Of a stretch of DNA of 64,000 bases, positions 5,153 to 14,066 are shown piece after piece. Numbering within the stretch: position 1 is the first letter of the stretch; each line of letters begins with the position of its first letter. Location of the stretch: NCBI GenBank assembly GCA_022749295.1, contig CP062007.1, positions 2,976,001 to 3,040,000 on the forward strand, written 5' to 3'. The stretch comes from Flavobacteriaceae bacterium GSB9. Its GTDB lineage: Bacteria; Bacteroidota; Bacteroidia; Flavobacteriales; Flavobacteriaceae. A model generated the notes under the pieces. That model made no database searches, was not told the DNA's origin, and saw only the letters and a list, made by a program, of their open reading frames with translations. The position numbers were made by a program, and so were the translations under genes.

Positions 5153-7888
5153 ATGAACAAAAATTACAGAGTTTTGGCCTTAATGGTCTTTTCTTTTTTT
5201 GCCCTGCAGACAGTCGTGGGGCAGGAACTGTTGAAAACTTCAAAACATGCCCCAAAAATTTCAGAATATTTATCTAAAAATAAAACAAAGTATAACCTTT
5301 CAAGTTCAGATTTAGAAAATATACAGCTAAACAGAGAGGTGTATTCTGCTTCCACAGGAATTACACACAGTTATTTAAACCAAGCCTATAAGGGCGTTAA
5401 AATACATAATGCCATTTCAACGGTAGGCATTAAAAACAATCAAGTATTTCATTTTGCCAATAAGTTTAAGAGTGGTATCAGTAAAAAAATAAATGTTGAA
5501 TCACCTGCGTTGAACAGGGTTCAAGCCATTCAAAAAGCAGCAACACATTTTAATCTGGGTAATGTAGGTAGTATTAAGTTGCTTGACTCTAAAAATGGTA
5601 AGGATATTTATTCGAAAGGTGACATTTCACAAGAAAATATACCTGTAGAACAAGTGTATTATCAGATGCCCGATGGCGAGTTAAGATTATCGTGGAACTT
5701 AAGTATTTACACCGTAGATAGCCAACACTGGTGGAGTGTTAGGGTTGATGCTGTAACAGGAGAAATTTTAGATACGAATGATTGGGTGACACGTTGTAAA
5801 TTCAACGGGGATCATGCTGGGCATGGAGTTAATAACCTTAAAAACAAAGAAAGTAAAACTTCAAATTTGTTTAAAACATCTGAAGCTACAATGTTTGTAG
5901 ATGGCGCACAATATAACGTATTCCCACTTCCAATAGAAAGTCCTAGTCACGGTGCCGTTCAATTAGTTACCAATCCAGCAGATGCCACCGCATCACCTTT
6001 TGGTTGGCACGATACCGATGGTAATGCAGGGCCAGAATATACTATTACCCGCGGGAATAATGTATGGGCACAAGAAGATAGAGATGGGGCAAACGATGAA
6101 GGCTATTCGCCTGATGGAACCGCAGCATTAGATTTTAACTTTTCGCTAAATATTAATCAAGAACCAATAGGGTATCAAGATGTAGCAATTACAAACTTGT
6201 TCTATACAAGTAATATGATGCATGATATTTTTTACCATTATGGATTTGATGAAGCTAGTGGAAACTTTCAGGAGAACAATTACGGTAAAGGAGGAGCTGA
6301 AGGCGATGTTGTATTGGCAGATGCCCAAGATGCTATTGAACACCCCACCGAGCCCCAAACCGATAATGCTAATTTTGCAACCCCACCAGATGGCAGTAGT
6401 CCCAGAATGCAAATGTATTTATGGAATAACTTTTCAATACCGCCTTTAACAATTAATAATGGCACATTAGCCGGGGGGTATGCTGCCGCTTTGCCATCTA
6501 CAACAGAGGGTGATGATGGTATTGGTAATATTACAGGGCCTTCAACAGTTCCGGTTACAGGTGATTTGGTTGTTGTTGATGATGGTACGGGTGCTCCAGA
6601 AGAAGGTTGTAACGCACTTGTAAATGGAGCTGAAGTAAATGGGAAAATAGCCGTGATTAGAAGGGGGAGTTGTAACTTCACCGTTAAAATTCAAAATGCC
6701 CAAGATGCAGGAGCTATTGCGGTGATAGTAGCAAATCATAATAACCCGACAAACGATCCTGATTATGGTGAATATGTTAGTATGTATGGTGTTACCGATC
6801 CTGCGTTTACAATTCCTTCTATTTTTATTAATTTTGACAATGGAGACGCTATAATAAACGCCATTCAAGGCGGCGAAACCCTAAATGCAACTATTGTGGT
6901 TGCGCCACGATTAGATTCTAGTTTCGATAATGGTGTTATTGTTCATGAATATGGTCATGGAATATCAAATAGACTTACCGGAGGTGCTGATACTTCTGAT
7001 TGTTTGTCAACTAATTTTCAAATGGGTGAAGGTTGGTCCGACTTTTTTACTTTTATTTTGACCATGAAGGCTTCTGATGATGGAGTTACAGGAAAAGGTA
7101 TTGCAACTTATGTCAATGGAGAAGGTATAAATGGGCAAGGTATTAGGCTTCGAAAATATAGCACGGATATGTCCGTTAATGAATATACCTTTGAAGCGAC
7201 TAATGATAATACAATTCTAGGAGAAGATGAGGATGGCGACCCTATAATTCTCAATCGTTTAGTGCATTACAATGGAACCATTTGGGCTACTATGCTATGG
7301 GATTTAACATGGGCTTATATAGATAAGTATGGTTTTGATCCCGATTTGAAAAATGGAACAGGGGGTAATAATAGAGTTATGCAAGTGGTTATGGAAGGAT
7401 TAAAACTCCAAGGTTGTAACCCCGAGTTTATTGAAGGGCGTGATGCTATTTTAGCAGCCGATACCGCTATTACCGGAGGAGAAGACCAATGCTTAATTTG
7501 GGAGGTATTCGCCAGAAGAGGATTAGGTGTTGATGCCTCAGAAGGTATTCCGTTTAAATTTGAGGATCAAGTTAATGGTTTTGCAACACCTGACCCTAGC
7601 GATCCTTCATTGGCCAATTGTACTACCTTAAGTGCTAACATATTTACGGTTAAAGATTTTAAAATTTACCCTAATCCGGCGAACGATAGAATTACCATTA
7701 AATCTGGTAAAAATTTAGGTAGTGTATCCATTAACTTAGTCGATATAAATGGAAGACCAGTACTCACCAAACAAGCAGATTTGCTTGGTGAGGTTGAGTT
7801 GAACACCAGTGCAATACAGTCAGGACTTTATATCTTAAATATAAAAGGGGAACACCTAAACACTAACCAAAAGATAATTATCGAGTAA
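5153..7888 (+). CDS. Secreted M36 (fungalysin-type) metallopeptidase with PA insert and T9SS tail
   Basis: A 911-residue secreted zinc peptidase. It has a signal peptide (residues 1-23, ending VVGQ), then a FTP/PepSY-like propeptide (about 30-210, with VRVDAVTGEILDTND). The catalytic domain carries HEYGH at 598-602 with zinc ligands His598 and His602 and catalytic Glu599. The third ligand is probably Glu626 in QMGEGWSDFF. A protease-associated (PA) domain is inserted at about 470-585 (GKIAVIRRGSCNF, AGAIAVIVANHN). The tail at about 835-911 is a type IX secretion sorting domain (FKIYPNPANDRITI, SGLYILNIKG). It should digest extracellular protein. A TATATTTG box lies at 5119-5126, without a good -33 box. 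A strong terminator follows. Confidence 0.93.
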   Translation: MNKNYRVLALMVFSFFALQTVVGQELLKTSKHAPKISEYLSKNKTKYNLSSSDLENIQLNREVYSASTGITHSYLNQAYKGVKIHNAISTVGIKNNQVFHFANKFKSGISKKINVESPALNRVQAIQKAATHFNLGNVGSIKLLDSKNGKDIYSKGDISQENIPVEQVYYQMPDGELRLSWNLSIYTVDSQHWWSVRVDAVTGEILDTNDWVTRCKFNGDHAGHGVNNLKNKESKTSNLFKTSEATMFVDGAQYNVFPLPIESPSHGAVQLVTNPADATASPFGWHDTDGNAGPEYTITRGNNVWAQEDRDGANDEGYSPDGTAALDFNFSLNINQEPIGYQDVAITNLFYTSNMMHDIFYHYGFDEASGNFQENNYGKGGAEGDVVLADAQDAIEHPTEPQTDNANFATPPDGSSPRMQMYLWNNFSIPPLTINNGTLAGGYAAALPSTTEGDDGIGNITGPSTVPVTGDLVVVDDGTGAPEEGCNALVNGAEVNGKIAVIRRGSCNFTVKIQNAQDAGAIAVIVANHNNPTNDPDYGEYVSMYGVTDPAFTIPSIFINFDNGDAIINAIQGGETLNATIVVAPRLDSSFDNGVIVHEYGHGISNRLTGGADTSDCLSTNFQMGEGWSDFFTFILTMKASDDGVTGKGIATYVNGEGINGQGIRLRKYSTDMSVNEYTFEATNDNTILGEDEDGDPIILNRLVHYNGTIWATMLWDLTWAYIDKYGFDPDLKNGTGGNNRVMQVVMEGLKLQGCNPEFIEGRDAILAADTAITGGEDQCLIWEVFARRGLGVDASEGIPFKFEDQVNGFATPDPSDPSLANCTTLSANIFTVKDFKIYPNPANDRITIKSGKNLGSVSINLVDINGRPVLTKQADLLGEVELNTSAIQSGLYILNIKGEHLNTNQKIIIE

Positions 7889-7952: not shown

Positions 7953-8402
7953 ATGATAGAACCTTTCAATGATGCCTATTTTATGAAAAAAGCCTTGCAA
8001 GAGGCTGAAGCTGCTTTTGAAAAAGGCGAGATTCCTGTTGGAGCCGTAGTGGTTATTGAAAATAGAATTATTGCACGCGGCCATAATTTAACCGAAACCC
8101 TTAACGATGTTACGGCACATGCCGAAATGCAGGCTATTACTGCAGCAGCCAATTTTTTGGGAGGTAAGTACTTGCAAAAATGTACACTTTACGTTACATT
8201 AGAACCTTGCCAAATGTGCGCTGGTGCTTTGTATTGGAGTCAGATTTCAAATATTGTTTATGGTGCCAGGGATTTAGAGAGAGGTTGTATTAATCTCAAT
8301 ACTAAACTGCACCCTAGAACTAGTATTAAAGGTGGTGTGCTAGAGGAAGAAGCTGCAAATCTATTGAAGCGTTTTTTTATTGAAAAGCGAAACTTAAATT
8401 AG
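7953..8402 (+). CDS. tadA: tRNA-specific adenosine deaminase
   Basis: A 149-residue zinc deaminase that converts adenosine 34 of the tRNA-Arg(ACG) anticodon to inosine. The cytidine-deaminase fold motifs are intact: HAE at residues 56-58 (His zinc ligand and Glu proton shuttle) and PCQMC at 85-89 (two Cys zinc ligands). Length and the FFIEKRNLN tail fit bacterial TadA. A TATTTTTG box at 7941-7948 ends four bases before the ATG, so transcription from it would give a leaderless or nearly leaderless message. Its 3' end overlaps the convergent small membrane-protein gene by four bases. Confidence 0.95.
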   Translation: MIEPFNDAYFMKKALQEAEAAFEKGEIPVGAVVVIENRIIARGHNLTETLNDVTAHAEMQAITAAANFLGGKYLQKCTLYVTLEPCQMCAGALYWSQISNIVYGARDLERGCINLNTKLHPRTSIKGGVLEEEAANLLKRFFIEKRNLN

Positions 8403-8635
8403 TGTTTATTTTTGCGTTGACTCTCTCGCATTTTGTCTAAGTTCTCTTTGTTAATCATATAGTCTTTTATGTCTTTATCTTTCCATCGGTAGTAAGAAAA
8501 TAAAGGGAAAACCACTAAAAACAATCCGGCTACACCAAAACCTACTAACTTTTCAGAATAGGTAACATCTAGTACAAAGCCTAAAATAATGCTTGTAAAT
8601 ACGGCAATGGTTAATATATACAATAGGTATTTCAT
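8399..8635 (-). CDS. Small two-helix membrane protein of unknown function
   Basis: A 78-residue protein. Two hydrophobic segments are visible at about 3-24 (YLLYILTIAVFTSIILGFVL) and 32-50 (GFGVAGLFLVVFPLFSYY), followed by a highly charged tail (RWKDKDIKDYMINKEN, then KMRESQRKNKH). No enzyme motif was recognised. It begins seven bases from the stop of the downstream ClC gene on the same strand, so the cluster is probably read from the ClC genes into it. It could be an accessory of the ClC protein, but that is only inferred from position. Confidence 0.7.
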   Translation of the reverse strand: MKYLLYILTIAVFTSIILGFVLDVTYSEKLVGFGVAGLFLVVFPLFSYYRWKDKDIKDYMINKENLDKMRESQRKNKH

Positions 8636-8642
8636 TAAACGG

Positions 8643-10430
8643 TTACTTGGTAAATTTTATAAGTTGGCGTCGGTAGGCCGTTAATAATTTAGATTTTGAA
8701 ATATAGCCGTAGTATTTACCCTGTTTCGTTACTGGTAAATTCCAAGCGCCGGTAGATTTAAATTTCTCCATAATATCATTCATGGTGTCTTTGTTGTAGT
8801 CAATAATCCCAGCATCAGCATGCATTAAATCAGAAACACTCACTTTGTCGTACAAATCGGCTTTAAACATCATATGTCTGATGTCGTCAAGTCTTATAAC
8901 CCCTAAAAACTCATTGTCGTCATTCACTACGGGGAAATGGTTTCGCGATGATTTTGCGACAGCTTCATTCAAGATATGACCCAGGGTCATTTCAGGTTTT
9001 AAGATGATAAAATTGGTTTCAACAACCTTATCTATGTCTAAAACCATAAGAACGTTTTGATCTTTATCGTGTGTCATAAGTTCACCACGTTCGGCCAATT
9101 TCATAGTATAAATAGAGTGTGATACATAGTATTTTGTGATGGCAAACGAAATAGCAGCTACCAACATAAGGGGAACAAAGAGCTGGTGCCCACTTGTGAT
9201 TTCAGCAATGAGGAAAATGGCAGTTAAGGGCGCGTGTAAAACACCAGCCATAAGGCCTGTCATGCCTAAAAGTGTAAAGTTCGCTTCGGGAACTGAAAAA
9301 TTTAAACCAATATTATTTACAATTTTTGCAAAAGCATTACCCAAAACGCTTCCCATTATGAGGGTTGGAATAAAAATACCTCCAACACCACCGGCACCAA
9401 AAGTGGTTGTCATGGCAATGGCTTTAAACACAGCTATGCCCAAAAGTAGGGCAATAACGACCCATATATTATCGAGGTCCAATTGAAAGGGTGTTGATCC
9501 AATGGCTGCTAGATGGTCGCCTTTTAATAAATTGTTCATTAGGTTGTACCCCTCACCATATAGCGGCGGAATAAAATAAAGCATAGTGCCAATAGCCAAA
9601 CTGCCTATTAATAAACGTTTTGCCCGACTTTCAAATTGTTTGAAAAAGTTTGTTATGGCAAAAAAGACTTTTGAAAAATACACCGAGGCTATAGCTGTTA
9701 CAATACCTAAAAGAATGTACAGAGGGATATCTTTAAATTTAAAATGGTCATCAATATCAACATGAAGCAAAACATCGGTTCCTAAAAATAAATAAGAGGT
9801 GATTACAGCAGCAACAGATGCTAAAAGTAAAGGCACTAATGAGGTAAACGCAATGTCTAAGCTAAAAATTTCTACAGCAAAAACGATAGCTGCAATAGGA
9901 GCTTTAAACATAGACGCCATGGCACCTGCCGAAGCACAGCCAATTAGTAGCAATCTTGTTTTTGTGCTCATGTGAAAAAACTGCGCTGTATTTGATCCTA
10001 ATGCGGACCCAACGCTAACAGCAGGCCCTTGTAGACCAACCGAACCACCAAAACCAGCAGTTAAAGGAGCTGTAATCAAGGCGGCGTAAATATTGTACCG
10101 AGGTAAAATTCCGTTTAGTTTTGATAAACCATATAAGGTAGTCGAAATACCATGCCCGATATGTTTTTTAAGCCAAGTCTGTTTAATGATGTAAACAAGG
10201 GCAAGCCCAATAATGGGAAAAATAAAATACAAAGTGTTTTGGTGGTTTTTTAGGAAATCCCATTCCAATAATGAACGTATAAAGTGCGTTAAATTTTTCA
10301 GTACCACGGTACCCATGCCAGCCAGAACACCAACAAGAACACTAAGAATGTAAATGAACTGCCGTTCGGAAATATGTTTATATTTCCAGATTAAAAATTT
10401 TCGAAGTAGAACCTTGGAGTTTGTTGGCAT
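8643..10430 (-). CDS. ClC-family anion channel with CBS domains; gating Glu replaced by Gln
   Basis: A 595-residue membrane protein of the ClC chloride channel/transporter family. Selectivity-filter motifs are visible: GHGIS (92-96), GSVGLQGPAVSVG (about 129-141) and GAGGVGGIFIPTL. The C-terminal part (about 445-590) is a pair of CBS domains (NHFPVVNDDNEFLGVI, WNLPVTKQGKYYGYIS). In the GxEGP motif the gating glutamate (Glu148 of E. coli ClC-ec1) is Gln134. The position of the proton glutamate (Glu203) is Ile188, next to the conserved Glu187. Both changes argue against H+/Cl- exchange and for a passive or differently gated pathway. It is paralogous to the upstream gene at 10473-12266. Confidence 0.93.
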   Translation of the reverse strand: MPTNSKVLLRKFLIWKYKHISERQFIYILSVLVGVLAGMGTVVLKNLTHFIRSLLEWDFLKNHQNTLYFIFPIIGLALVYIIKQTWLKKHIGHGISTTLYGLSKLNGILPRYNIYAALITAPLTAGFGGSVGLQGPAVSVGSALGSNTAQFFHMSTKTRLLLIGCASAGAMASMFKAPIAAIVFAVEIFSLDIAFTSLVPLLLASVAAVITSYLFLGTDVLLHVDIDDHFKFKDIPLYILLGIVTAIASVYFSKVFFAITNFFKQFESRAKRLLIGSLAIGTMLYFIPPLYGEGYNLMNNLLKGDHLAAIGSTPFQLDLDNIWVVIALLLGIAVFKAIAMTTTFGAGGVGGIFIPTLIMGSVLGNAFAKIVNNIGLNFSVPEANFTLLGMTGLMAGVLHAPLTAIFLIAEITSGHQLFVPLMLVAAISFAITKYYVSHSIYTMKLAERGELMTHDKDQNVLMVLDIDKVVETNFIILKPEMTLGHILNEAVAKSSRNHFPVVNDDNEFLGVIRLDDIRHMMFKADLYDKVSVSDLMHADAGIIDYNKDTMNDIMEKFKSTGAWNLPVTKQGKYYGYISKSKLLTAYRRQLIKFTK

Positions 10431-10472
10431 AAGATAAATGTACTAAAAGTCTATGAAACAAGAGTCTAGTTT

Positions 10473-12266
10473 TTATGATTCCCCCTGCAAAGTTATCAAC
10501 TGTCTACGGTAAGCGGTTAAGAGTTTTGATTTTGAAATAAAACCGTAATAAGCGCCATTTTTTATAACAGGTAAATTCCAAGCGCTACTGTCTTGAAATT
10601 TTCGCATGATTTGAGTCATTTTGTCTTTGTCTAAATCAATAATCTTAGGAGGGCGTTGCATTAAATCTGTTGCCGTTAATTTTTTGTAGAGCGATTGGTC
10701 GAACATAATAGGGCGCAAATCGTCTAGAAGAATAATGCCTTGCAATTGATGCGTATCTTTATTTATAACTGGGTAAATGTTTCTGTTCGATTTTATAACT
10801 GCTTTTTGGATAATTTGCTCAAGAGTCATTTCTAGGTTGATAGTTACAAAATTGGTTTCAATAACTTTTTCGATATCCATTAAGGTTAAAACCGCATGGT
10901 CTTTATCGTGCGTTATCAATTCGCCTTTTCTGCCCAGCTCCATGTTATAAACCGAATGCGGCTTATAGTATTTTGTTATGGCAAAAGAAATGGTTGCGGT
11001 AAGCATCAGCGGAATAAAGAGCTCGTAACCTCCAGTAAGTTCGGCAATCAAGAAAATAGCGGTTAGGGGTGCATGTAAAACACCAGCCAATAGGCCAGCC
11101 ATGCCTACTAAGGTAAAATTACTTTCGGAAATAGAATTGTTAAACAGCCCACAATTATTGATTATTTTGGCAATACAATTGCCCATAATACTTCCCATAA
11201 ACAATACAGGCGCAAAAATACCGCCAACACCACCGGCTCCAAATGTAAAACAACTCGCTATTACTTTTGAAAATAGGAGTCCTGCCAATAGCAAAATAAC
11301 AATCCATATATTGGTTAAATCAAGGTGAAAAAGGTTATTGTGTAAGGCTTTTTCGGGTTTTCCAATGATGAGGTCGTTGATGATATCGAATCCTTCACCG
11401 TACAGTGGCGGAATTAAAAAAACAAGCAAACCAATACCCAAGCCACCAACAATTAATCGTTTTATAGGTGATTCAAGTTTATCAAAAAAGCCATGAATCC
11501 TGTCATAAACTTCGGTAAAGTAAATGGATATAAAAGCGGCAACAACACCTAAAACAATATAAAAAGGCGCATCGGATAAAAGGAATTTATCTTCAATTCT
11601 AAAAGGCAAAATAATGTCGTCTCCAAAGAAAAAATGCGAGGTTAAAATAGCAGAAAGTGAAGCGAACAATAACGGGAGCAATGACGCAAAGGTAAGATCC
11701 AAACTAAAAACTTCAATAGCAAAAATCAATGCGGCTATCGGTGCTTTAAAAATAGAGCTCATGGCTCCTGCAGCAGCACAACCAATGAGTAGGTTTCTCG
11801 TAGTTTGGTTCATGTGAAACATTCTGGAAATATTTGACCCAAGCGCAGCACCAGTAGCAACCGTAGGCCCCTCTAAACCAACAGATCCCCCAAAGCCGAC
11901 GGTTAAAGGAGCAGTAAGAATGGAGCCATACATTTGAAAACGTTTCATAATCCCTTTACGTTTAGAAATGGCATATAGCGTTGAAGGAATACCGTGGCTA
12001 ACTTTTTGCCTAATAACATATTTCATTATGAGATAAACCAAACTGAGTCCTATAACAGGGAAGGCAAAATAAAACGCGTGGTGGTAATAGGTAATCAATT
12101 TGCCTTCTAATAAATGCTGAATAAAGTGCGTTAAGTTTTTTAAAACAACGGCACCAAGACCAGCCGTAAAGCCAATAATCACACTTAAAATATAAACAAA
12201 CTGTTTATTGGAAATGTGTTTGGCTCTCCAAATTAAAACACGTTTTAATATGGTTTTTGTTGGCAT
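10473..12266 (-). CDS. ClC-family anion channel/transporter with CBS domains; gating Glu present
   Basis: A 597-residue paralogue of the neighbouring ClC protein, similar along its whole length (FVYILSVIIGFTAGLGAVV against FIYILSVLVGVLAGMGTVV). The gating motif is intact: GSVGLEGPTVATG with Glu132. The filter also has SHGIPSTLYA and GAGGVGGIFAPVLFMG. The proton-glutamate position is Val186 after Glu185, so coupled proton transport is still doubtful. Two CBS domains fill about 450-590 (NIYPVINKDTHQLQGII, WNLPVIKNGAYYGFIS). The gap to the downstream paralogue is 42 bases, so both are probably on one transcript after the aspS terminator. Confidence 0.93.
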   Translation of the reverse strand: MPTKTILKRVLIWRAKHISNKQFVYILSVIIGFTAGLGAVVLKNLTHFIQHLLEGKLITYYHHAFYFAFPVIGLSLVYLIMKYVIRQKVSHGIPSTLYAISKRKGIMKRFQMYGSILTAPLTVGFGGSVGLEGPTVATGAALGSNISRMFHMNQTTRNLLIGCAAAGAMSSIFKAPIAALIFAIEVFSLDLTFASLLPLLFASLSAILTSHFFFGDDIILPFRIEDKFLLSDAPFYIVLGVVAAFISIYFTEVYDRIHGFFDKLESPIKRLIVGGLGIGLLVFLIPPLYGEGFDIINDLIIGKPEKALHNNLFHLDLTNIWIVILLLAGLLFSKVIASCFTFGAGGVGGIFAPVLFMGSIMGNCIAKIINNCGLFNNSISESNFTLVGMAGLLAGVLHAPLTAIFLIAELTGGYELFIPLMLTATISFAITKYYKPHSVYNMELGRKGELITHDKDHAVLTLMDIEKVIETNFVTINLEMTLEQIIQKAVIKSNRNIYPVINKDTHQLQGIILLDDLRPIMFDQSLYKKLTATDLMQRPPKIIDLDKDKMTQIMRKFQDSSAWNLPVIKNGAYYGFISKSKLLTAYRRQLITLQGES

Positions 12267-12278
12267 ATTGTACTTTAC

Positions 12279-12308
12279 TAAAAAATCCCGCTTTTCAGCA
12301 GGATTTTA
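12279..12308 (-). terminator. Rho-independent terminator downstream of aspS
   Basis: On the minus strand the sequence reads AAAATCCTGC, a TGAAAA loop, then GCGGGATTTTTT: a 10-bp stem with one T-G pair followed by a T run. It lies between the aspS stop (12312) and the next ClC start (12266), so the ClC genes probably use their own promoter or readthrough. Confidence 0.75.
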
Positions 12309-12311
12309 AAA

Positions 12312-14066
12312 TTATTCTTCTAGGCTTAGTTTTAAGCTTAATTCTTTTAATTGTTCATCGTGAATAGGCGCAGGGGCATCAATCATCACGTCGCGTCCTG
12401 CATTATTTTTTGGGAATGCAATAAAATCGCGTATGGTTTCCTGTCCGCCCAATATGGCTACTAATCTATCCAATCCAAATGCCAAGCCGCCGTGTGGCGG
12501 TGCACCGTATTGAAAGGCATCCATTAAGAAACCAAATTGCGCTTTGGCCTCTTCGGGTGTAAACCCTAAATAATCGAACATTAACGATTGGGTTTCTTTA
12601 TCGTGTATTCTTATTGAACCCCCTCCAATTTCGTTACCGTTTAAAACTAAATCATAGGCATTGGCCTTTACGGCTCCAGGGTCGGTTTTCAACAATTCAA
12701 TTTGCCCTGGTTTAGGTGCGGTAAAAGGGTGGTGCATGGCGTGGTAGCGCTCGGTGTCTTCATCCCATTCTAAAAGCGGAAAGTCCATGACCCAAAGCGG
12801 TGCGAATTCATCGGCTTTTCGTAAGCCTAAACGCTCGGCTAATTCCATACGTAAGGCACTGAGTTGAGTTCTAACTTTGTTTTTGTCACCCGAAAGCACA
12901 CAAATTAAGTCGCCAGGCTTGGCTTCGGTGGCTTCTGCCCATTTTGCCAAGTCGTCTTGGTCATAAAATTTATCAACTGATGATTTATAAGTCCCGTCGT
13001 CATTGCATCGGCAATACACCATGCCCAATGCGCCAACTTGTGGGCGTTTTACCCAATCAATCAACTTGTCGATTTCTTTTCGGGTATAACTATTTCCACC
13101 AGGTACGGCAATTCCAACTACCAATTCAGCAGTATTAAAAACCTTAAAATCTTTGTGTTGTGCCACTTCGTTTAATTCGCCAAATTCCATGCCAAATCGA
13201 ATATCAGGCTTGTCATTTCCGTAAAGGCGAATGGCGTCATCATAAAGCATTCTTGGAAATTTTTTAATCTCTACACCATTTATGTTCTTTAACAGGTGCC
13301 TTGTTAAACCTTCAAAAGCAATTAAAATATCCTCTTGCTCAATAAAGGCCATTTCGCAGTCTATTTGTGTAAACTCGGGCTGTCTATCCGCACGAAGATC
13401 TTCATCCCTAAAGCATTTTACAATTTGGAAATACTTATCCATACCGCCCACCATAAGCAACTGCTTAAAGGTTTGAGGCGATTGTGGAAGGGCGTAAAAT
13501 TGGCCTTCGTTCATTCGGCTTGGCACGACAAAATCGCGAGCGCCTTCAGGTGTCGATTTTATCAAATAAGGTGTTTCTACTTCAATAAAGCCTTCTTTAG
13601 AAAGGTAATTTCTAACCTCTTGAGTTACCTTATGTCTAAAAATCAAACTATTTTTCACCGGGTTTCGGCGGATATCCAAATAGCGGTATTTCATACGGAT
13701 ATCTTCACCGCCATCGGTTTTATCTTCAATGGTAAATGGTGGTAATTTGGCTTCGTTTAGAATATTTAATTCAGAAACCAACAATTCTATGTCGCCGGTA
13801 GGAATATTTGGGTTTTTCGAGGCACGCTCAATAACGGTTCCTTTAACTTGAATAACGAACTCCCGACCCAAGTGCTGTGCTTGTTCCATCATGTCTTTCG
13901 GGGTGCGTTCTTCATCAAACACTAATTGGGTAATTCCATATCGGTCGCGTAAATCTACCCAAACAATAAATCCTTTATCTCTAATCTTCTGAACCCATCC
14001 GGCCAGAGTAACTTCTTTATTTATATCGGTCGATGATAATTCACCGCAATTATGACTTCGGTACAT
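12312..14066 (-). CDS. aspS: Aspartate--tRNA ligase
   Basis: A 584-residue class II aminoacyl-tRNA synthetase charging tRNA-Asp. The N-terminal OB-fold anticodon-binding domain opens with [19 protein letters not shown] and [19 protein letters not shown]. Class II motif 2 is visible ([20 protein letters not shown]), preceded by [20 protein letters not shown], with motif 3 near the end ([15 protein letters not shown]). The insertion (GAD-like) domain lies at about 280-410. Length matches the bacterial type, which is longer than archaeal enzymes. A stem-loop terminator follows at 12279-12308. A TAAATTTG box lies 18 bases upstream of the start. Confidence 0.97.

Follow-up and report, generated by a model that had tools for sequence, protein, structure and literature searches.

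Adjacent genes for a CLC protein with the gating glutamate and a paralogue without it in Flavobacteriaceae bacterium GSB9

The gating glutamate of CLC proteins (Glu148, or Glu-ex, in ClC-ec1 of Escherichia coli) is conserved in almost all members (PMC4746265). In ClC-ec1 a nonprotonatable residue at this position abolishes H+ transport, with Cl- movement persisting in an uncoupled form (PMC3519907), and the E148Q variant of ClC-ec1 passes Cl- downhill and does not pump H+ (PMC7253180, PMC3519907). A natural loss of the glutamate is found in the animal proteins ClC-Ka and ClC-Kb; bovine ClC-K carries Val166 at the gate (PMC5362633). At the second proton position, Glu-in (Glu203 in ClC-ec1), all CLC channels have a valine, and CLC-ck2 from Citrobacter koseri is cited among exceptions (PMC3519907). 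Here we describe two neighbouring CLC genes, clcE and clcQ, in a stretch of 64,000 nucleotides (the window) from Flavobacteriaceae bacterium GSB9 (contig CP062007.1, positions 2,976,001 to 3,040,000). clcE has Glu and clcQ has Gln at the gating position. The explanation that we consider probable is that an ancestral, Glu-gated CLC protein with CBS domains and a member of an old gate-less lineage occupy one locus, that such genes are exchanged there between species and that the Gln protein resembles E148Q.

Among the closest described counterparts of clcQ is the E148Q mutant (PDB entries 1otu and 4kk8), which has Gln at the same position in the same fold. In contrast to the mutant, clcQ is a natural protein with CBS domains, and it differs from ClC-ec1 further by His at S107, Leu at R147, Ile at A358 and Ile at E203 (ClC-ec1 numbering); the identity over the matched part is 22%. 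ClC-Ka and ClC-Kb have likewise lost the glutamate naturally, but they are animal proteins, depend on barttin and have Val rather than Gln or Leu at the gate. Among PDB entries, those that match the sequence of the window protein best are bacterial. Natural gate-less CLC proteins are known from animals; a search of open-access PMC articles, with subscription journals outside its scope, listed no report of gate-less CLC clades in Flavobacteriaceae or in bacteria.

The genome consists of a single contig of 3.63 Mb, in which a whole-genome search gave clcE and clcQ as the sole matches to PF00654. Both scores (Table 1) lie far above the curated cut-off of 24.8 bits. The two reading frames are open over their full length without interruption and their products are 57% identical. 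On the minus strand aspS is followed, after a gap of 45 bases, by clcE, after another 42 bases by clcQ and after 7 bases by a gene for a small protein of 78 residues, towards which tadA converges.

Table 1. Features of the CLC locus and its surroundings (positions within the window).
Feature	Position	Strand	Basis
clcQ, CLC protein of 595 residues with two CBS domains and Gln134 as gate residue	8643..10430	-	open reading frame; PF00654 238 bits; two PF00571 stretches
clcE, CLC protein of 597 residues with two CBS domains and Glu132 as gate residue	10473..12266	-	open reading frame; PF00654 262 bits; two PF00571 stretches
Gln134 codon CAA (ClC-ec1 E148)	10029..10031	-	sequence and alignment
Glu132 codon (ClC-ec1 E148)	11871..11873	-	alignment
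Ile188 codon in clcQ (ClC-ec1 E203, Glu-in)	9867..9869	-	alignment
Val186 codon in clcE (ClC-ec1 E203, Glu-in)	11709..11711	-	alignment
Ile354 codon in clcQ (ClC-ec1 A358)	9369..9371	-	alignment of 238 sequences
Small membrane protein, 78 residues, starting 7 bases after clcQ	8399..8635	-	
aspS, upstream neighbour of the CLC slot, used as species marker	12312..14066	-	
Gap of 45 bases between aspS and clcE: hairpin followed by T6, terminator-like by eye, not listed by the terminator scan	12267..12311	-	
tadA, convergent, other side of the slot in many relatives	7953..8402	+	

The initial annotation had proposed that the two paralogues differ at the gating glutamate through a change to a CAA-type codon. 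This proposal held. In phmmer alignments with ClC-ec1 and a Salmonella CLC protein, Glu132 of clcE (motif GLEGP) and Gln134 of clcQ (GLQGP, codon CAA) both fall on E148. In the same alignments Glu185 and Glu187 correspond to E202, and Val186 and Ile188 to E203. Both proteins contain the E202 residue, the G-x-x-G-P and GGxFxP motifs and Tyr445. An AlphaFold2 model, calculated for clcQ only (47 alignment rows, predicted local distance difference test score 84, predicted template-modelling score 0.72), has the CLC fold: it superimposes on ClC-ec1 (1ots_B) with a Z-score of 46.8 and a root-mean-square deviation of 2.7 over 414 aligned residues. By sequence the pair thus appears to combine one gated and one naturally gate-less paralogue, a difference that is conserved in the orthologues.

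Of the two glutamates expected in an antiporter, the gating one is present in clcE only and Glu-in in neither protein. The second absence had been pointed out before as a feature of the pair; the residues were read correctly, but the substitution is not peculiar to these proteins, since Val or Ile stands at E203 in all 238 sequences of our alignment and at every one of the 43 loci read from beyond the order. The combination of a Glu gate with Val at Glu-in makes clcE similar to ClC-1 and other Glu-gated channels, which are eukaryotic. CLC-ck2 also has a nonpolar residue at Glu-in, as in the window proteins, and is an antiporter that keeps the gating Glu. Since E203A ClC-ec1 still pumps H+, a neutral residue at E203 alone does not abolish pumping (PMC7253180), and the Glu protein may be an antiporter.

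To see how the gate varies among relatives, we searched 299 genomes of the family (taken as Flavobacteriaceae from its named relatives) with the Glu protein and one Leu relative. This CLC type occurs in 233 of them; the sequence was retrieved for 224 of these, and 223 gave a readable gate. The locus carries Leu in 93 genomes, Met in 2, Gln in 35, a Glu+Gln tandem in 8, Glu in 84 and a Glu+Glu tandem in 1, so that 130 of the 223 have only gate-less copies of this CLC. The Leu count comprises 91 genomes identified by motif and two (G235 and G150) read by eye as GLLGS. The ten positive genomes outside the census are nine with unlisted places, two of which (G174 and G127) were read later and have Glu, and G293, which is cut at a contig end; a second match in G225 was left out. 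We based the census on fetched sequences because a motif-pattern search both over- and under-counted: its match in G191 lies outside any CLC protein (the CLC of that genome, L226, has Leu), and it missed the Gln loci of G025, G253, G049 and G155. Of at least 568 named loci the 80 with the best matches were read; this biased set comprises 37 with Leu, 30 with Gln, 7 with Glu and 6 with Glu+Gln. The closest among these 80 belong to Aestuariibaculum suncheonense and Mariniflexile fucanivorans, which the NCBI taxonomy places in Flavobacteriaceae.

All 43 loci read from beyond the order (L306-L348) have a Glu gate, as have, within the order, all five sequences from the four genomes of other families that were covered (G300, G315, G303 and G311). 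Glu is therefore most likely the ancestral state, as judged from these sequences. In a FastTree phylogeny of the 238 CLC proteins the gate letter requires four changes. One clade, with a local support of 100, unites all Gln, Leu and Met proteins and also takes in two Glu proteins. The same clade appears in a C20-mixture tree of 104 rows with an SH-aLRT (Shimodaira-Hasegawa-like approximate likelihood ratio test) value of 88, with 100 for the Leu clade. A nonprotonatable gate extends across both lineages: the Gln clade has Gln in 44 of 46 proteins and Glu in the other two, and its sister clade has Leu or Met in 95 of 95. This rules out a strain-specific mutation in clcQ, which the initial annotation had considered.

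The change at the gate is accompanied by one next to it. If the two Glu proteins nested among the Gln ones are set aside, all 92 Glu proteins of the family have Ala, Ser or Gly at the site of A358; in all 139 non-Glu proteins this residue is Ile or Val. We considered whether Ala358 could serve as a strict signature of the Glu proteins and rejected this, since the nested Glu pair keeps Ile and one of the five other-family Glu proteins of the order (G300_2) has Val. The trees are best read as a single loss of the gating Glu, accompanied by a change of Ala358 to Ile or Val, which would have yielded the Gln and the Leu lineages. Locus L377 also falls in or near the Gln lineage with a Glu gate and lacks the aspS-clc neighbours.

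Could clcQ be a decaying duplicate next to an ordinary Cl-/H+ antiporter? Its Gln codon is one G-to-C change away from Glu and duplicates often decay. The Gln lineage is old, however (57% identity to the Glu form), Gln-only genomes occur in many genera and the Gln protein is often the sole CLC of its genome. Moreover, the ratio of nonsynonymous to synonymous substitution rates (dN/dS) is as low as for the Glu form: it ranges from 0.008 to 0.038 in ten pairs (four Gln, three Leu and three Glu), as rough values because dS exceeds 1 in some of them; three further pairs of the 13 tried were saturated in dS. These values point to strong purifying selection on the tested gate-less and Glu pairs, and a pseudogene or relaxed copy is rejected for them. 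The gate residue is written with several codons, in the 93 Leu genes with TTA (40), CTT (17), TTG (17), CTG (11), CTA (7) and CTC (1) and in the 44 Gln genes with CAA (38) and CAG (6), which argues that the residue and not merely the DNA has been kept. Decay is thus hardly credible; for the Gln copy it is already refuted by the intact, conserved copies.

The CLC genes of the Glu, Gln, Leu and Glu+Gln types mostly share one chromosomal slot. aspS lies upstream in 202 of the 223 genomes and the small gene downstream in 201, with both in 191, as seen in stretches some of which stop at a contig edge. Both flanks are present in 65/84 Glu, 30/35 Gln, 7/8 Glu+Gln, 1/1 Glu+Glu, 88/93 Leu and 0/2 Met genomes, and the small gene follows 70/84 Glu, 32/35 Gln and 91/93 Leu genes. 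When mapped on trees of flanking or marker genes, the locus type changes 43 times for aspS (199 genomes), 35 times for dxs (116) and 28 times for aspS and dxs combined (112); shuffled labels gave means of 90.5 (aspS) and 55.7 (aspS and dxs). Branches with a support of at least 95 alone force 7 (Leu) and 11 (Glu) changes on the aspS tree and 10 (Leu) and 12 (Glu) on the combined tree. Set against the four changes of the gate letter in the CLC phylogeny, the 43 changes of locus type for aspS suggest that deep lineages were exchanged in place.

Locus types also differ within genera. In a table compiled by hand, with family and genus labels as assigned by the search tool, 37 of the 42 genera with at least two read genomes are uniform in locus type and five are mixed. 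In four of these five, aspS is 87-95% identical between the differing species and the CLC proteins only 51-60%. Among the named loci, those of Winogradskyella litoriviva and W. ludwigii have Glu+Gln, strain BB23 has Gln and W. pelagia Leu; Maribacter polysiphoniae has Glu and M. stanieri Leu. The fifth mixed genus is that of the window itself, two congeners of which (G159 and G299) carry the Gln gene only. The window Gln protein is 90% identical to that of Aestuariibaculum (L003/G115) and 83-84% to those of the congeners, with which aspS and dxs group it; this is a sign that the Gln gene itself was exchanged.

A Leu gene in tandem with another CLC gene was not seen among the 223 genomes, which favours replacement over differential loss for the Leu lineage. 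The simplest reading of trees and synteny would be exchange by recombination in the conserved flanks combined with gain or loss of one copy of a Glu-Gln tandem; Leu versions would be traded in the first way and tandem-derived versions in the second. Tentatively, and with somewhat less than even confidence, we go further and regard the slot between aspS, the small gene and tadA as a long-lived trading place of Glu, Gln and Leu lineages between close species. Selection would repeatedly switch species between a gated or proton-coupled and a passive, always-open conductance. Phe357, a residue that in ClC-ec1 assists the swing of the gating Glu, would then be free to go in part of the Leu lineage.

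Glu+Glu CLC tandems beside aspS occur as well, at L135 (G133) and L137 (G300); tandem copies hence also arise without loss of the gate. For the Glu+Gln tandem the initial annotation had suggested a possible mixed dimer. In this reading both proteins would be made together, and one pore would be gated, the other always open. CLC proteins are indeed dimers (PMC3519907), the two window genes are adjacent on the same strand with a gap of 42 bases, and the pair is kept in 8 of the 223 family genomes and in 6 of the best 80 named loci, with the Glu gene first and the Gln gene second in the tandems read. Each CLC subunit is, however, an independent functional unit (PMC3519907). The partners are also not always found together: 35 of the 43 Gln-bearing genomes have no Glu partner at the locus and only 8 have the tandem. 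Nor did the tandem partners give a sign of co-adaptation: the identity between Glu and Gln proteins is 57.3% within and 57.2% across genomes (permutation p 0.21), so that they show no excess likeness within genomes. A mixed dimer is therefore possible in the eight tandem genomes but unneeded there, an obligate one is unlikely, and as an explanation of the pair we judge it very improbable.

A check for second CLC proteins in 40 hand-picked genomes is informative about the oligomer. Of 19 non-Glu-only genomes among them, 18 have no CLC above the Pfam cut-off other than the gate-less protein, which is presumably a homodimer there. A second CLC protein occurs in 1 of 19 non-Glu-only and in 9 of 13 Glu-only genomes (Fisher p 0.0002, uncorrected for kinship and hand choice). 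A link of the Gln form to light-driven ion pumps was considered and dropped: PF01036 is found in 71 of the 299 family genomes, but only in 2 of the 43 Gln-bearing ones (G034 and G147, by list reading) and not in the window genome.

Based on these results and on the mutants of ClC-ec1, the Gln protein is likely to be an uncoupled anion pathway with an open outer gate, driven by gradient and voltage. Gln134 would act like E148Q, leaving the pore open to the outside and the proton coupling lost, and anions would flow downhill as set by membrane potential and gradient. In the Glu protein the gate would still respond to protons or voltage, and coupling to protons may persist even with Val at Glu-in. 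Each of the two would form a homodimer with two pores of its own.

Several observations weigh against the picture of an old, open, gate-less lineage moving between species in one slot. Two Glu proteins (G003 and G238) are nested among the Gln proteins; the genes that flank the CLC pair in the window were all absent from the surroundings read of their CLC genes (L142 and L149), and they may represent either a reversal or a relic of the earlier state. One or both flank genes are missing from the stretch read in 32 of the 223 genomes. The locus type is far more clustered than shuffled labels (43 against 90.5 changes), which indicates much vertical inheritance, and parts of the flank-gene trees are poorly supported (72 open branches out of 196), so that the number of exchanges is approximate. 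As to function, E148Q ClC-ec1 is slow, with about 300 compared to 2200 per second for the wild type (PMC7253180), and a Gln CLC protein may thus be slow or be shut by other means. A blocked pore, or a different selectivity or rate, could result from His at S107, Ile at A358 and Leu at R147. The Leu form, finally, has Ala or Ser instead of G108 in 91 of 93 proteins and has lost F357 in 34 of 93, and it might carry another anion or none.

The last points lead to a different interpretation, according to which the Gln and Leu proteins have a changed substrate or serve as CBS-domain sensors with a silent pore. His at S107 and Ile at A358 in the window Gln protein would fit, as would the altered G108 and the often altered F357 of the Leu form and the retained CBS domains. 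On the other hand, no variation is seen at E202, G355 and P359, only 2 of the 139 non-Glu sequences lack Y445, dN/dS calculated over the full protein stays well under 1 in the tested pairs, and His at S107 is the rule in the Glu form too (79 of 92). We consider this interpretation unlikely and prefer the uncoupled anion pathway. In the Leu lineage (for example locus L043) S107 varies, with His in 68, Arg in 11 and Asn in 4 of 93 proteins; with the changed G108 as well, the lineage may have a different central anion site.

F357, the phenylalanine in GGxFxP, is present in all 92 Glu and all 44 Gln proteins, whereas 36 of 95 Leu/Met proteins no longer have it. The losses amount to two changes on the tree, i.e. 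two events and not 36. In ClC-ec1 the F357A exchange lowers the rate about 9-fold, and the double mutant E148A/F357A is close to E148A alone (582 compared to 974 ions per second; PMC7274781). The loss in part of the Leu clade parallels this mild effect and is what a relaxed need for F357 would look like. A full release of the "aromatic slide" in the gate-less forms was rejected: F190 (Phe-ex), the partner of F357 in ClC-ec1, is retained by all 93 Leu and all 44 Gln proteins, and by the Met proteins too. With F190 surviving, the release is partial.

A whole bacterial clade without the gating Glu offers a natural, replicated test of the purpose of the gate in bacteria, and its members could be used for structural work on the distinction between channel and antiporter. 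Close species that differ in locus type provide material for physiological experiments on pH, salt and membrane potential. The pattern suggests that passive and gated chloride pathways have been traded in evolution.

The small membrane protein had been suggested as a possible member of this particular group. It follows Glu, Gln and Leu genes alike and hence belongs to the locus rather than to clcE and clcQ. The same distribution, Glu forms included, bears on the question of a barttin-like partner; an accessory subunit of the CLC protein is possible. The protein matches no family above cut-off, the weak likeness to SPC12 (21.4 bits) being below the threshold of 23.6. Beyond tadA, positions 5153-7888 encode a large predicted secreted metallopeptidase, presumably of the fungalysin type, with an HEYGHG motif and a C-terminal sorting-like tail, which some relatives also carry close to the slot, whereas others do not.

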